A DNA stretch of 64,000 bases from Nitrospinaceae bacterium (GTDB lineage Bacteria > Nitrospinota > Nitrospinia > Nitrospinales > Nitrospinaceae). Both the position numbers and the translations under genes were made by a program. The stretch is taken from the NCBI GenBank assembly GCA_028278405.1, contig JANQEK010000007.1, positions 62,001 to 126,000 on the forward strand, written 5' to 3'. The notes beneath the pieces were generated by a model. That model saw nothing but the letters and a program-made list of their open reading frames with translations. It did no database searches and was not told where the DNA came from. Shown here piece by piece: positions 51,047 through 58,653 of this stretch (position 1 is its first letter; each line of letters begins with the position of its first letter).

Positions 51047-51814
51047 ATGTTCGGATTACGATCCAAATTGAATCGCCGTTTGTTTCTAAAGGTGTTTTCA
51101 CTTTCCGCTCTTGCTTCGTTGTGGCCGAAGAAAAGCGCGGGAACAGTTAATTTTCAAAACAACAAGGATATTCCCCCCAATTATATTCAGAACCGGGACG
51201 TACCCGGATTTTACATCCGGAGCGCCAATCCGTTTCTGGGTGTGGATGCGCAGAAATGGGGTCTGGCGGTCACAGGTATGGTGAAGCATAAGCTGGCCCT
51301 GGGATACGAAGACCTGTTTGGGTTTCCTGTTGTGTCTCAAGTATCGCGGCTCAAGTGTGTGGAATGCTGGTCGGCTAAAGCCAAATGGGAAGGATTCCGG
51401 TTCCAGGATCTGGTCGATCGGGTGCAGCCGGATCCCAAGGCGAAATACGTCACTTTTCAATCGGCCGACTCTTATTATGAAAGTTATGCGCTGGAAGAAT
51501 TGCTGAGGCCGCGGGTGCTGATGGTTTTGCGTATGAACGATCAGCCATTGACCAAAGATCATGGATTTCCGCTGCGCTTGATCGCGCCTTTCAAGTACGG
51601 ATACAAAAACATAAAGTACATCACCCGAATCGAGTTTACCGACTCCCGCAAACGCAACTACTGGGCGGACTTCGGCCCCTACTCGGTGGACGGGACCATT
51701 CAACCCGGTATTGACCACCCTCTCGACTATCAGAAGAAGCCCTTGTCGATCAATGGCGGGGAAGTGTTTCACTTTTTCGACCAGCGTCCCGCCTCTTCCA
51801 AACCTCGTCGATGA
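51047..51814 (+). CDS. Tat-exported molybdopterin oxidoreductase, MsrP (YedY)/sulfite-oxidase-like
   Basis: A 255-residue protein. The N-terminus LNRRLFLKVFSLSALASLW is a Tat signal (twin Arg at 10-11 followed by FLK). The mature part is an oxidoreductase molybdopterin-binding domain: VSRLKCVECWSAKAKWEGFRF, where Cys104 would ligate Mo, YVTFQSADSYYESYAL, VMRMNDQPL-like stretch and HGFPLRLIAPFKYGYKNIKYI. This matches MsrP/YedY-type catalytic subunits. The partner membrane cytochrome MsrQ is absent; instead a SUMF1-fold lipoprotein gene overlaps by four bases. It begins one base after dapB, an unexpected operon neighbour. Substrate could be protein methionine sulfoxide, another S- or N-oxide, or something new. 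Confidence 0.85.
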   Translation: MFGLRSKLNRRLFLKVFSLSALASLWPKKSAGTVNFQNNKDIPPNYIQNRDVPGFYIRSANPFLGVDAQKWGLAVTGMVKHKLALGYEDLFGFPVVSQVSRLKCVECWSAKAKWEGFRFQDLVDRVQPDPKAKYVTFQSADSYYESYALEELLRPRVLMVLRMNDQPLTKDHGFPLRLIAPFKYGYKNIKYITRIEFTDSRKRNYWADFGPYSVDGTIQPGIDHPLDYQKKPLSINGGEVFHFFDQRPASSKPRR

Positions 51815-52536
51815 AATGGCGAACCTCCTCCTTATTGGCGTTCTCTCTCTGTTGGCTGGTATCCTGCTCTGAGAGCGGCGTCGAACAGATTTCTGTTCAG
51901 GTTCCTGCGCACGTAAAAGTTCCTGAAGAGATGGTGTACATTCCTGAGGGTAAGTTCAAATACGGTCACGCCGAAGACCCGAAGACGGCTCTCGGCCAAA
52001 AGGTTTTTTTAAAAGCCTACTTGATCGACCGCTATGAACTGCAACGCGGTGAATACAAAAAATTTGATCCGAACTTTGAAATGAGTCCGGGAAAAGAAAA
52101 ATTCCCGGTTACGTGGGTGCCTTTTGCAGCCGCGAAGTCCTATTGTGAATGGGCCGGCAAGCGTCTGCCGACGGAACAGGAATGGGAGAAAGCGGCGCGG
52201 GGACCGGATGGAGGCAAGTGGCCGTGGGGCAGCTATCAGGCGCATCCCAACAACGGATTCTCAGGTTTTATTCCGGAGCCGGTTGACAAACGTAAGGAAT
52301 GGATCAGTCCGTACGGAATTTATGGTATGGGTCACAACGTATGGGAATGGATGGCAGACGATTGGGACTACAACGGGATGCCTGGCGCCGAGAAGGGATT
52401 GTATAAAGTAATCCGGGGCGGATTGTACCAATCCCATTTGAAAATTGACTTTTCACATACTTGGGCGCGCAATTATATGGACCCGACCGCGCGCTACAAC
52501 TTTATCGGCTTTCGATGCGCAAAAGATGTGGATTGA
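51811..52536 (+). CDS. SUMF1-fold lipoprotein
   Basis: A 241-residue protein with a lipobox (CWLVSC) and a complete SUMF1/FGE-like domain: EEMVYIPEGKFKYGHA, YLIDRYELQRGEYKKF, KRLPTEQEWEKAARGPDG, PYGIYGMGHNVWEWMADDW, KVIRGGLYQ and terminal GFRCAKD. It is anchored on the periplasmic side and overlaps the molybdoenzyme gene by four bases (ATGA), so they are made together and likely work together, for example with the SUMF1 fold as docking or scaffold part. Whether it keeps any formylglycine-type activity is unclear. Its stop is 20 bases from the convergent kinase gene. Confidence 0.85.
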   Translation: MKWRTSSLLAFSLCWLVSCSESGVEQISVQVPAHVKVPEEMVYIPEGKFKYGHAEDPKTALGQKVFLKAYLIDRYELQRGEYKKFDPNFEMSPGKEKFPVTWVPFAAAKSYCEWAGKRLPTEQEWEKAARGPDGGKWPWGSYQAHPNNGFSGFIPEPVDKRKEWISPYGIYGMGHNVWEWMADDWDYNGMPGAEKGLYKVIRGGLYQSHLKIDFSHTWARNYMDPTARYNFIGFRCAKDVD

Positions 52537-55282: not shown

Positions 55283-55317
55283 CCAAATAAAAAGGGCTCC
55301 ACTTTTCAGTGGAGCCC
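55283..55317 (-). terminator. Intrinsic terminator within the kinase leader
   Basis: A perfect ten-pair stem (GGGCTCCACT/AGTGGAGCCC) closed by GAAA and followed on the minus strand by TTTTTATTT. It would stop transcripts before the kinase gene unless an alternative fold prevents it. Confidence 0.9.
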
Positions 55318-55449
55318 CCCTGAATAAACAGGGAGCTTCCTAGAAAAAGGCTAGCCCTTATCTCCGGAAGCTCCCATTGTACTTGCGTTAGACAATGGAT
55401 CACCTCCTTTCTTCCAGGGGGTGAATCTTAATGCCAAAAGCTCCCCTGG
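55318..55449 (-). promoter_or_regulatory. Structured leader with competing hairpins (attenuator-like)
   Basis: Three hairpins can be drawn on the minus strand. H1 pairs CCAGGGG (55449-55443) with CCCCTGG (55420-55414), just before the ribosome binding site. H2 pairs GGGAGCTTCC (55375-55366, inside the tiny ORF) with GGAAGCTCCC (55340-55331), a perfect ten-pair stem. H3 pairs CTCCCTG (55335-55329) with CAGGGGG (55322-55316) around TTTATT. H3 shares bases with both H2 and the terminator stem, so H3 competes with both. The arrangement suits transcription attenuation coupled to translation of the tiny ORF. The signal and the regulation are inferred. Confidence 0.55.
55351..55395 (-). CDS. Putative 14-residue leader peptide
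   Basis: A TTG-initiated ORF of 14 codons (MSNASTMGASGDKG) ends in TAG. The ribosome binding site before it, AAAGGAGGTGATCC, is complementary to the 16S rRNA 3' end over about 14 bases with seven bases from GGAGG to the TTG, far stronger than any other in this window. The peptide has no run of one amino acid, so it does not resemble amino-acid biosynthesis leaders. Its codons overlap the 5' arm of a perfect hairpin. It could be a real tiny protein or a regulatory ORF. Confidence 0.5.
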   Translation of the reverse strand: MSNASTMGASGDKG

Positions 55450-56206: not shown

Positions 56207-58054
56207 TCAACTGAACCAATGGAGGACTTTTTCCTCGAATCCGCTGAACCAGATTTGCAGTTCGATGGGGATAAGGCTATTAAAATAGGTTAGATATCCC
56301 TCAGCGAGAGCGATCCCGAGACCCACCAGCAAAAGCCCGCTGAACAGGTTGGTGCTATGGAGCAGAATGGTCCGTTGGCCTATTTTGATATCCCAGGCTT
56401 TGCCGCGCAATAGTCGCCAGAACCAGCCGTCTTTACTGAGGTGACTGCACACCGACGCGATCAGAATCAGGGGCGATCCCAATCCAACAGCATAGAAGAA
56501 CAGGAGAGTCATGCCCTGCAGCACGGTTTTATCCGATCCCGCCAAGAGCAGAATTGCCGCTAACACGGGTCCAACGCAGGGAGTCCAGCCCATGGCGAAT
56601 GTAGCTCCAAACAGAAAATATCCAGCCAGGGTCGCGTTTGGGGCGCTTTTGAACGTGGCTCCCGAAAATCCCATGCCGATTAAGGTCATGACACCGAAAA
56701 CAACAATGAGCACACCGCCCCAGTAGGTCAGGGAATCCAGGTAATCGCGTAACAAGCTTCCCATCAGGCTGGCCGATGCCCCCATGATTACGAACAGGGA
56801 TGCCAGTCCGCAAAAAAATGCAAACGAATTGAGGGTCATTCGCCCGCGGCTGGTCTGGGCGGTAATGGCAAAGTAGGCCGGCAGAATGGGTAAAGTGCAG
56901 GGAGATAGAAAACTGAATAGACCGGCTAATAGTGAAATCAAGGACAATACCAGAATTCCGGATTTTGGAAGCTTGGATTCCCCTTCAAAGGGACTGAATG
57001 AAGGGGCGGGTGGGGCCTCGGCTGTCGATCCCGGAGTTCCTGCGGATTCGGAAAATAAATCGCCTCCGGAGGCCGACAGTGTTGAAGAGCTGCTTTGTGC
57101 CTGAGTCGGGAAAGCAGGTGCATCTTTGAATCCCTTCGGCGCTTTATTGCTGACACAGCGGAACCCGACATCCGATGCTCCTTGATCGGGATCGGCATAC
57201 TGGCGGTACCCGGACCGCGCGTACTCCTTCAACACTTTGCCGTAGAACTCACCGGGGAAATGGCCAATATCAGAAACGGATGCTCCCCGGATTACTTTGT
57301 AACCCTGATTGAAATCGTCAAGTTGGAACTTGTTGTCGGGGTAGGGAACATAGTCCCCGTCAATCCACTCCCAGACATTGCCAATCAAATCCTCCACGCC
57401 CTCGGAGGTGGCTCCTTTCGGGAAGGCTCCGACCTTGGTCAGTGAGACTTTGGAGCCAATTTTGTTGGGAAGGTTAGCGCGATCCCGCTCAAACGTATTC
57501 CCCCAAGGGTAGGCATTTCCATGTGTTCCACGCGCGGCCCGCTCCCATTCTTTTTCGGTGGGCAGGCGTTTGTCCGCCCACTGGCAAAAATTGGCGGCGT
57601 CGAACCAGTTCACCCAGACAACAGGGTGATCCCCCAAGCCCTCGGGAAATTGGTTTTTTTGCCAGCCCTTGGGAGGAGAATAATATCCGAGCTTTTCAAT
57701 CATGACTCTGTATTCAGGGTGGGTCGGTAAGTTTTCCAGAAACGCCTGGTAACGGCGATTCGTCACTTCCATCCGGTCTATATAAAATCCCTTGAGAAAT
57801 GGTTTTTGCTCGGGATGAGCATCCCGGTACAGGGGCTTGGGAATGCCCATGGAAGCGCCCAGTCCGGATTCATCGGTCTGATTGGTTCCGAAAACAAATT
57901 GTCCCGCAGGAATAAAAATCATGTCCGCTTCAAGCGGATTGTCCGGTCCGTTAGAATGGGCCCAGGAATACAGAGAAGTTCCGCATATCACAAGAACTCC
58001 CAGGGCCATCAATCTTAAAATTTTCAGCATGGCAGCTTTTGATTGTTTTGACAT
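56207..58054 (-). CDS. SUMF1-CcdA fusion (SUMF1 periplasmic domain plus six-helix thiol-electron transporter)
   Basis: A 615-residue fusion. A signal segment (about 10-32) is followed by a SUMF1/FGE-like domain at about 44-302 (MIFIPAGQFVFGTNQTDESG, KRLPTEKEWERAARGTHG, LIGNVWEWIDGD, KVIRGASV, GFRCVSN). A Ser/Pro-rich linker (about 305-362) leads to a CcdA/DsbD-beta-like unit of six membrane helices, with redox Cys386 in FLSPCTLPILP and Cys493 in GWTPCVGPVL. CcdA moves electrons from cytoplasmic thioredoxin to periplasmic thioredoxin-like proteins. The upstream gene, which overlaps by 31 bases, encodes just such a TlpA-like protein, so the two likely form one reducing pathway with a SUMF1 part outside. 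I know of no characterised protein with this fusion. Confidence 0.85.
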   Translation of the reverse strand: MSKQSKAAMLKILRLMALGVLVICGTSLYSWAHSNGPDNPLEADMIFIPAGQFVFGTNQTDESGLGASMGIPKPLYRDAHPEQKPFLKGFYIDRMEVTNRRYQAFLENLPTHPEYRVMIEKLGYYSPPKGWQKNQFPEGLGDHPVVWVNWFDAANFCQWADKRLPTEKEWERAARGTHGNAYPWGNTFERDRANLPNKIGSKVSLTKVGAFPKGATSEGVEDLIGNVWEWIDGDYVPYPDNKFQLDDFNQGYKVIRGASVSDIGHFPGEFYGKVLKEYARSGYRQYADPDQGASDVGFRCVSNKAPKGFKDAPAFPTQAQSSSSTLSASGGDLFSESAGTPGSTAEAPPAPSFSPFEGESKLPKSGILVLSLISLLAGLFSFLSPCTLPILPAYFAITAQTSRGRMTLNSFAFFCGLASLFVIMGASASLMGSLLRDYLDSLTYWGGVLIVVFGVMTLIGMGFSGATFKSAPNATLAGYFLFGATFAMGWTPCVGPVLAAILLLAGSDKTVLQGMTLLFFYAVGLGSPLILIASVCSHLSKDGWFWRLLRGKAWDIKIGQRTILLHSTNLFSGLLLVGLGIALAEGYLTYFNSLIPIELQIWFSGFEEKVLHWFS

Positions 58055-58653
58055 AGAGAGGACGACGGGGTTTCCATGGATTTATCGATAGGGGTAAGAA
58101 GTTGATCAAAATAAAGCAGGGTTTTGGGTTCCGCCCAGTTTTCCGCTCCGTTGAGAACTCCGATGATTTTACCCTGGGGGTCGATCAAAAATGTTGTGGG
58201 TAAACTGATCACACCAAACTGGTTACTGACTTTCAATTTTGGATCCAGCCCAATCGGAAAGGTAAAGTTTTGTGCTTGAACATAGGGTTTTACTACCTGC
58301 GCCCCGAAGATATCGTTGGAGACGGCGATCATCGCAAAGTTGCGTTCTTTAAATTTCCGATACAGCAATTCCAACGACGGCATTTCCACTTTACAGGGTC
58401 CGCACCAAGTAGCCCAGAAATTGACCAATAAATATTTTCCCTGATAATCGTTCAGAGTTAATTCCCGGCCGTCGAGCGAGGTTAGGGAAAACAGGGGTGC
58501 GTTGACCGGTGAGTCTTCCCCCGCAAAGCATGGAGCGGTCAACATCAGGACCAGAAACCAGACTCCGAAAAAGTTTTTAGGATTCGGCAATACTATAATG
58601 GATGTGCGATTCAGCTGGGTGGGCATGGGGCTACAGAATTCAACGCGATTCAT
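58024..58653 (-). CDS. TlpA/ResA-like periplasmic thioredoxin
   Basis: A 209-residue protein with an N-terminal membrane/signal segment (about 28-44), then a thioredoxin fold: LLVNFWATWCGPCKVEMPSLELL with the WCGPC redox motif (Cys84, Cys87) and VISLPTTFLIDPQGKI with the cis-Pro. This is the TlpA/ResA class that keeps cytochrome c apoproteins or other envelope thiols reduced. It overlaps the SUMF1-CcdA gene, the obvious electron donor. Start is uncertain: ATG at 58653 or 58623, neither with a good ribosome binding site. Confidence 0.9.
   Translation of the reverse strand: MNRVEFCSPMPTQLNRTSIIVLPNPKNFFGVWFLVLMLTAPCFAGEDSPVNAPLFSLTSLDGRELTLNDYQGKYLLVNFWATWCGPCKVEMPSLELLYRKFKERNFAMIAVSNDIFGAQVVKPYVQAQNFTFPIGLDPKLKVSNQFGVISLPTTFLIDPQGKIIGVLNGAENWAEPKTLLYFDQLLTPIDKSMETPSSSLCQNNQKLPC

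Follow-up and report, generated by a model that had tools for sequence, protein, structure and literature searches.

On the minus strand of the window (the whole 64,000-nucleotide stretch of DNA that was analysed), a compact element precedes the gene of a hybrid kinase with the domain order CHASE8-HAMP-PAS-HisKA-HATPase-receiver. The question raised by this locus is whether the element is a leader controlling the kinase or a gene in its own right. The preliminary description had proposed attenuation of the kinase by a tiny ORF and competing hairpins, with an independent small mRNA as the alternative. The complement of the 16S rRNA tail, the TTG-initiated ORF, the ten-pair hairpin called H2 and the terminator with its GAAA loop and T-run, all of which it had pointed out, are present in the sequence (Table 1).

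Table 1. Features of the element in the window, from 5′ to 3′ on the minus strand
Feature	Sequence or components	Position	Strand	Remark
Whole element		55504-55289	-	Promoter-like pair, P1/pseudoknot, Shine-Dalgarno, ORF with P3 and P4, terminator
Promoter-like pair	TTGACA (55504-55499), 17 nt, CAATCT (55481-55476), then ATATA	55504-55476	-	
Hairpin P1	GATGTCAGAGGC (55462-55451) with GCTTTTGGCATT (55441-55430)	55462-55430	-	
H-type pseudoknot	P1 loop CCAGGGG (55449-55443) with CCCCTGG (55420-55414)	55449-55414	-	Ends 3 nt before the Shine-Dalgarno
Extended Shine-Dalgarno	AAAGGAGGTGATCC	55410-55397	-	Complement of the single-stranded 16S rRNA tail GGATCACCTCCTTT
Hairpin P3	CCATTGT (55398-55392) with ACAATGG (55380-55374)	55398-55374	-	Over the start codon
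Micro-ORF	MSNASTMGASGDKG	55395-55351	-	TTG start, TAG stop, 14 codons
Hairpin P4 (H2)	GGGAGCTTCC (55375-55366) with GGAAGCTCCC (55340-55331)	55375-55331	-	Inner stem from the last ORF codons
Intrinsic terminator	GGGCTCCACT-GAAA-AGTGGAGCCC and T-run	55317-55289	-	10-bp stem, GAAA loop

The extended Shine-Dalgarno (SD) is the only match without a mismatch to its 14 bases in the window, the seven other matches within three mismatches being at chance level, and in the alignment it is nearly invariant across all members. Its duplex with the 16S tail has a computed energy of -26 kcal/mol, compared with -8 to -12 for two ordinary SDs. This complementarity was judged against the universally conserved 16S tail as observed in one genome (L275); the search with a tail pattern matched two of eight genomes, and the window genome's own tail is not among these readings. 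The stretch folds better than shuffled sequences (z -6.1) and the computed exposure of the SD is modest (0.34-0.42 unpaired), a prediction that fits a competition between the fold and the ribosome.

The fold was assessed on an alignment of 27 sequences, where two-sided changes occur in 68 cells (28 ± 4 in shuffles) and a structure slid along the alignment scores much less; given the relatedness of the sequences and the choice of the helices on the same set, these are strong tests, not independent ones. Two-sided changes are seen in 11 of the 12 pairs of P1, and pairing drops to the shuffled level if its arms are exchanged between genera. In the pseudoknot helix 93% of the cells are paired and three of the seven pairs have changed on both sides. 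In P3 the pair 55396-55376, formed by the base preceding the start codon and one in codon 7, is C-G, A-U or U-A in nine, seven and seven sequences respectively, and exchanging the P3 arms between genera brings pairing part of the way down to the shuffled level. P4, which shares the GG at 55375-55374 with P3, has a conserved outer arm and an inner stem that covaries (14.5 for the sequences' own arms, against 10.4 swapped and 10.6 shuffled). The stop codon is near the tip of P4, the TAG of the window sequence lying within its loop, and in local folds of most members it is unpaired there. The best-supported parts of the structure are the 5′ pseudoknot (55462-55414 with P1) and the start-codon hairpin, both of which were missed in the preliminary description. 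Covariation supports P1, the pseudoknot, P3 and the inner part of P4. The preliminary description was right in seeing a real micro-ORF with an extreme SD, and hairpins that a ribosome on the ORF would be expected to disturb.

A GC hairpin followed by a T-run is kept at the terminator position in most relatives; the output of a simple consensus terminator scan did not include the terminator of the window. A fold of the window sequence in which CACCCCC masks the SD was considered and set aside, since it clashes with the pseudoknot and, judged by eye, is not kept beyond the genus. For the Gemmatimonadota relatives described below, sequestration of the SD by GGGCAAGCGATCGCC is predicted only. On the 5′ side a conserved box with the consensus TTGACW is found. 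Of 49 Nitrospinota members, 36 have a TTGAC box upstream, in most cases at 91-101 nt from the SD, with CA at a spacing of 17 nt as its commonest partner. In the window CAATCT is a poor sigma-70 match, and the TTGACA-N17-CAATCT pair is a putative promoter.

By DNA search the element was recovered from 30 of 41 relatives, and a covariance model trained on 27 members recovered it from 50 of 77 Nitrospinota genomes, including 25 of the 31 good ones. The Nitrospinota matches are nearly all within one Nitrospinales-like order and there is nearly always a single copy. Two genomes have two copies each (L310 and L325 in G048, L316 and L324 in G065), possibly through a mixture of strains in the bins.

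The ORF is 14-15 codons long in 28 of 29 members, and 19 in the remaining one owing to a frameshift. Over these members the stop, at one position, is TAA in 18, TGA in six and TAG in five, while frame 2 is closed at codon 1 and frame 1 has scattered stops. Indels within the ORF are nearly all multiples of three. In two further genera ATG or GTG, slightly displaced, replaces TTG, and the downstream frame and stop are kept (for example MLSDSTRGASGVIC), with one frameshift among 20 sequences. Since start, frame and stop appear to be under selection, the micro-ORF is very probably translated.

It might be that the 14-residue peptide is itself the product, and that the extended SD and the hairpins simply secure high or controlled expression of a small protein. 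The conserved start, frame and stop would be accounted for, S-x-S and GAS positions recur among the Nitrospinota peptides, and a dN/dS-like ratio of 0.55 in Nitrospinota, where synonymous changes are thus somewhat favoured, leaves room for a role of the peptide. However, the ratio is 0.73 in Gemmatimonadota and 0.83 in Alphaproteobacteria (in all three the pairs compared are not independent and RNA pairing is a confounding factor), the peptides differ widely from phylum to phylum, and the C-terminal codons vary freely, pairing with equally variable downstream bases. We therefore regard the small-protein explanation as rather unlikely. With the peptide so weakly constrained while start, frame and stop are kept, it seems from these comparisons that being translated counts for more than the peptide that is made.

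A small protein would also be in keeping with the use of the same SD before an ordinary gene in phages. Of the 37 IMG/VR matches, most are one 65-aa phage gene, with other ordinary phage ORFs, which speaks against a viral origin of the element; two contigs have alpha-type copies and are probably host DNA. In marine phage contigs the string of SD and TTG-TCT stands before this ordinary gene. The recurrent gene (STTVFDVLNxKLTELxGSSEDFL...; L326-L362) starts with TTG followed by TCT, behind the same perfect 12-nt SD, and a small GC hairpin precedes it. The core of SD and NTG-UCU may thus in part mark just strong initiation, and because it can be attained as a strong initiation site, its identity alone is no proof of common descent across phyla.

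Relatives in other phyla were sought both with Rfam and with the core. At curated thresholds, only tRNAs in the window reach the cut-off of an Rfam model. At E ≤ 1, the model of the Caulobacter sRNA CC2171 (RF01867) has one match in the window genome, at the element locus (34.4 bits, E 1.7e-5), and in most matching Nitrospinota relatives it falls on the same locus; no Nitrospinota genome reaches its gathering score of 75 bits. Six of 14 control genomes, Caulobacter among them, have a match at E ≤ 1 and one passes the cut-off. Alignment to the model places the core GAAAGGAGGUGAUCC-N-NTG-UCU at the window locus. As this locus is below the curated cut-off, we call the Nitrospinota RNA CC2171-like, a remote relative that is not filed as a member of the family. 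The alphaproteobacterial form is identified by Rfam as CC2171 (24-91 bits), for which the literature naming the family gives no function. Matches to BjrC68 and ctRNA mostly reflect the terminator hairpin and were discarded, and a BcKCsr2 match to one alphaproteobacterial member is weak.

A collection of species-level genomes contains 103 stretches with the core pattern GGAGGTGATCCNTTGTCTAR, where roughly four are expected by our estimate; most belong to Gemmatimonadota, Rhodobiaceae and Nitrospinota, and other phyla contribute singletons. With two mismatches allowed, the core is found in 139 of 297 Gemmatimonadota and 84 of 386 Alphaproteobacteria, nearly always once per genome, whereas the reversed control pattern yields a handful; a few of the matches are chance ones inside ordinary ORFs. 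Matches in Planctomycetota (4 of 148) and Myxococcota (8 of 144) are few, some of them again inside ordinary ORFs. Gemmatimonadota and Alphaproteobacteria share the perfect SD, NTG-UCU, a micro-ORF and a terminator. The Gemmatimonadota examined have ORFs of 11-22 codons, whereas those of Alphaproteobacteria are mostly 20-27 codons long, and each of the three stops is used. RF01867 hits many of the same Gemmatimonadota loci, but weakly (mostly E 5e-4 to 0.02) and at scores that some unrelated loci also attain. Statistically, there is thus weak support for homology between the Gemmatimonadota form and CC2171, and part of the likeness could have arisen by convergence towards a strong initiation site.

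Three further observations concern these sets. In two alphaproteobacterial members (L206 and L209) the micro-ORF extends to 56-58 codons and resembles a signal peptide with a short tail. A hint of stress control comes from large-genome alphas (L248-L255), in which an upstream CTTG...CCCCATNAT resembles a heat-shock sigma promoter. A contig titled Gammaproteobacteria (L112) matches a Gemmatimonadetes contig (L106) almost perfectly in the region of the element and has probably been mis-binned.

The kinship with CC2171 brings in a second explanation, that the element is a conventional trans-acting, base-pairing sRNA of the class of CC2171, in which the ORF and SD are secondary and serve, for example, to protect the RNA through ribosome binding. 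The element is to all appearance a stand-alone structured gene with a terminator, and its relatives are listed as sRNA in Rfam. Its most conserved part is, however, the ribosome-binding site and the ORF frame and not a separate seed, which makes such an sRNA distinctly unlikely.

That leaves the neighbouring genes. The kinase follows the element in the window genome and in two relatives (G001 and G005), but in a genome of the same genus (G006) and in one of the same family (G009) another gene, on the opposite strand, comes next. In other families the neighbours differ and are often on the opposite strand, those in Gemmatimonadota vary too, and among the neighbourhoods of the relatives there is no conserved regulated gene downstream. 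H3 (CTCCCTG/CAGGGGG), which the preliminary description had offered as the switching hairpin, does exist in the window sequence, but by eye in the alignment it can form only in close congeners, and no conserved antiterminator competing with the terminator was found there. Although a short ORF does appear to overlap a hairpin arm, as judged from selection on the ORF and from P4, and although the geometry of H2, H3 and the terminator is suggestive, a leader-peptide attenuator of the kinase is very improbable and was rejected on synteny: the element persists throughout the order and outside it with changing genes downstream, and in most relatives the unit is closed by a terminator of its own. The alternative of an independent small mRNA was right as to form, the element being apparently a stand-alone conserved unit. 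Around the kinase, the gene at 56207-58054 (minus strand) encodes one protein with an FGE-sulfatase domain (43-301) and a DsbD-type transmembrane domain (371-546), with a thioredoxin-like ORF (58024-58653) just upstream of it, and another FGE-like ORF (51811-52536, plus strand) is located beyond the kinase.

Judged from the sequences compared, selection is acting on the structure, the SD and the start, frame and stop of the ORF; docking, translation and output we infer. It would seem somewhat probable that the element is an autonomous RNA gene of about 175 nt, distantly related to CC2171, which recruits the ribosome onto its micro-ORF; we take it as a unit of its own because it has a promoter-like box and a terminator and no conserved gene downstream. 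The 30S subunit would dock between the pseudoknot and P3 through the 14-nt pairing of SD and 16S tail, and would melt P3 so that the start codon is reached. Translation of the 14 codons would then carry the ribosome through the 5′ arm of P4, opening that hairpin, and termination would take place near the P4 loop. The availability of ribosomes, or initiation itself, may in this way set the fold, the lifetime or the trans activity of the RNA, the selected event presumably being the act of translation and not the peptide. If ribosome docking is correct, the element should co-sediment with 30S or 70S in a manner dependent on GGAGGUGAUCC. More tentatively, there may be a multi-phylum class of RNAs, with CC2171 as one branch, that captures ribosomes via the complete 16S tail, drives initiation on a micro-ORF with a nearly irrelevant peptide, and in this way reports or buffers free 30S subunits, as a sensor of ribosome availability or of the 16S 3′ end; we consider this possible but doubtful.

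The comparison connects single-copy RNAs of Nitrospinota and Gemmatimonadota, which escape every Rfam family at its cut-off, with an orphan sRNA family of Alphaproteobacteria, and offers, for a widespread RNA, the testable hypothesis of a ribosome-gated small RNA. What they seem to have in common is ribosome engagement, with a full-tail SD and a micro-ORF that is kept in start, frame and stop and hardly in sequence, and such 'non-coding' RNAs may be mRNAs in form. With CC2171 the Nitrospinota element shares the form of a putative stand-alone RNA with a terminator and the core with its NTG and UCU; it differs in its additional 5′ pseudoknot and in its ORF of 14 codons, shorter than those of most alphas, and it carries a selected micro-ORF whereas Rfam treats CC2171 as a non-coding sRNA.

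In leader-peptide attenuators of the trpL type a tiny ORF lies inside competing hairpins before a terminator, and the rnTrpL of Sinorhizobium, with its peptide peTrpL, is trans-acting and also works as a free RNA. The element has the same layout, but it has no regulated operon downstream, no diagnostic run of codons and an SD matching the full tail. SgrS/SgrT, RNAIII/hld and SR1/SR1P are dual-function sRNAs, likewise small independent RNAs with a translated short ORF; there the peptide is conserved, whereas here start, frame and stop are kept and the peptide seems to drift. The nearest parallel to the initiation site itself comes from Staphylococcus aureus, where cryo-EM indicates that extended SD-aSD helices are structurally possible (PMC13009471). 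Pairing beyond the canonical SD towards the start codon, non-AUG starts and small ORFs are common to both, but in S. aureus two extra pairs are formed in ordinary mRNAs, while the element is a dedicated RNA that matches the tail in full.
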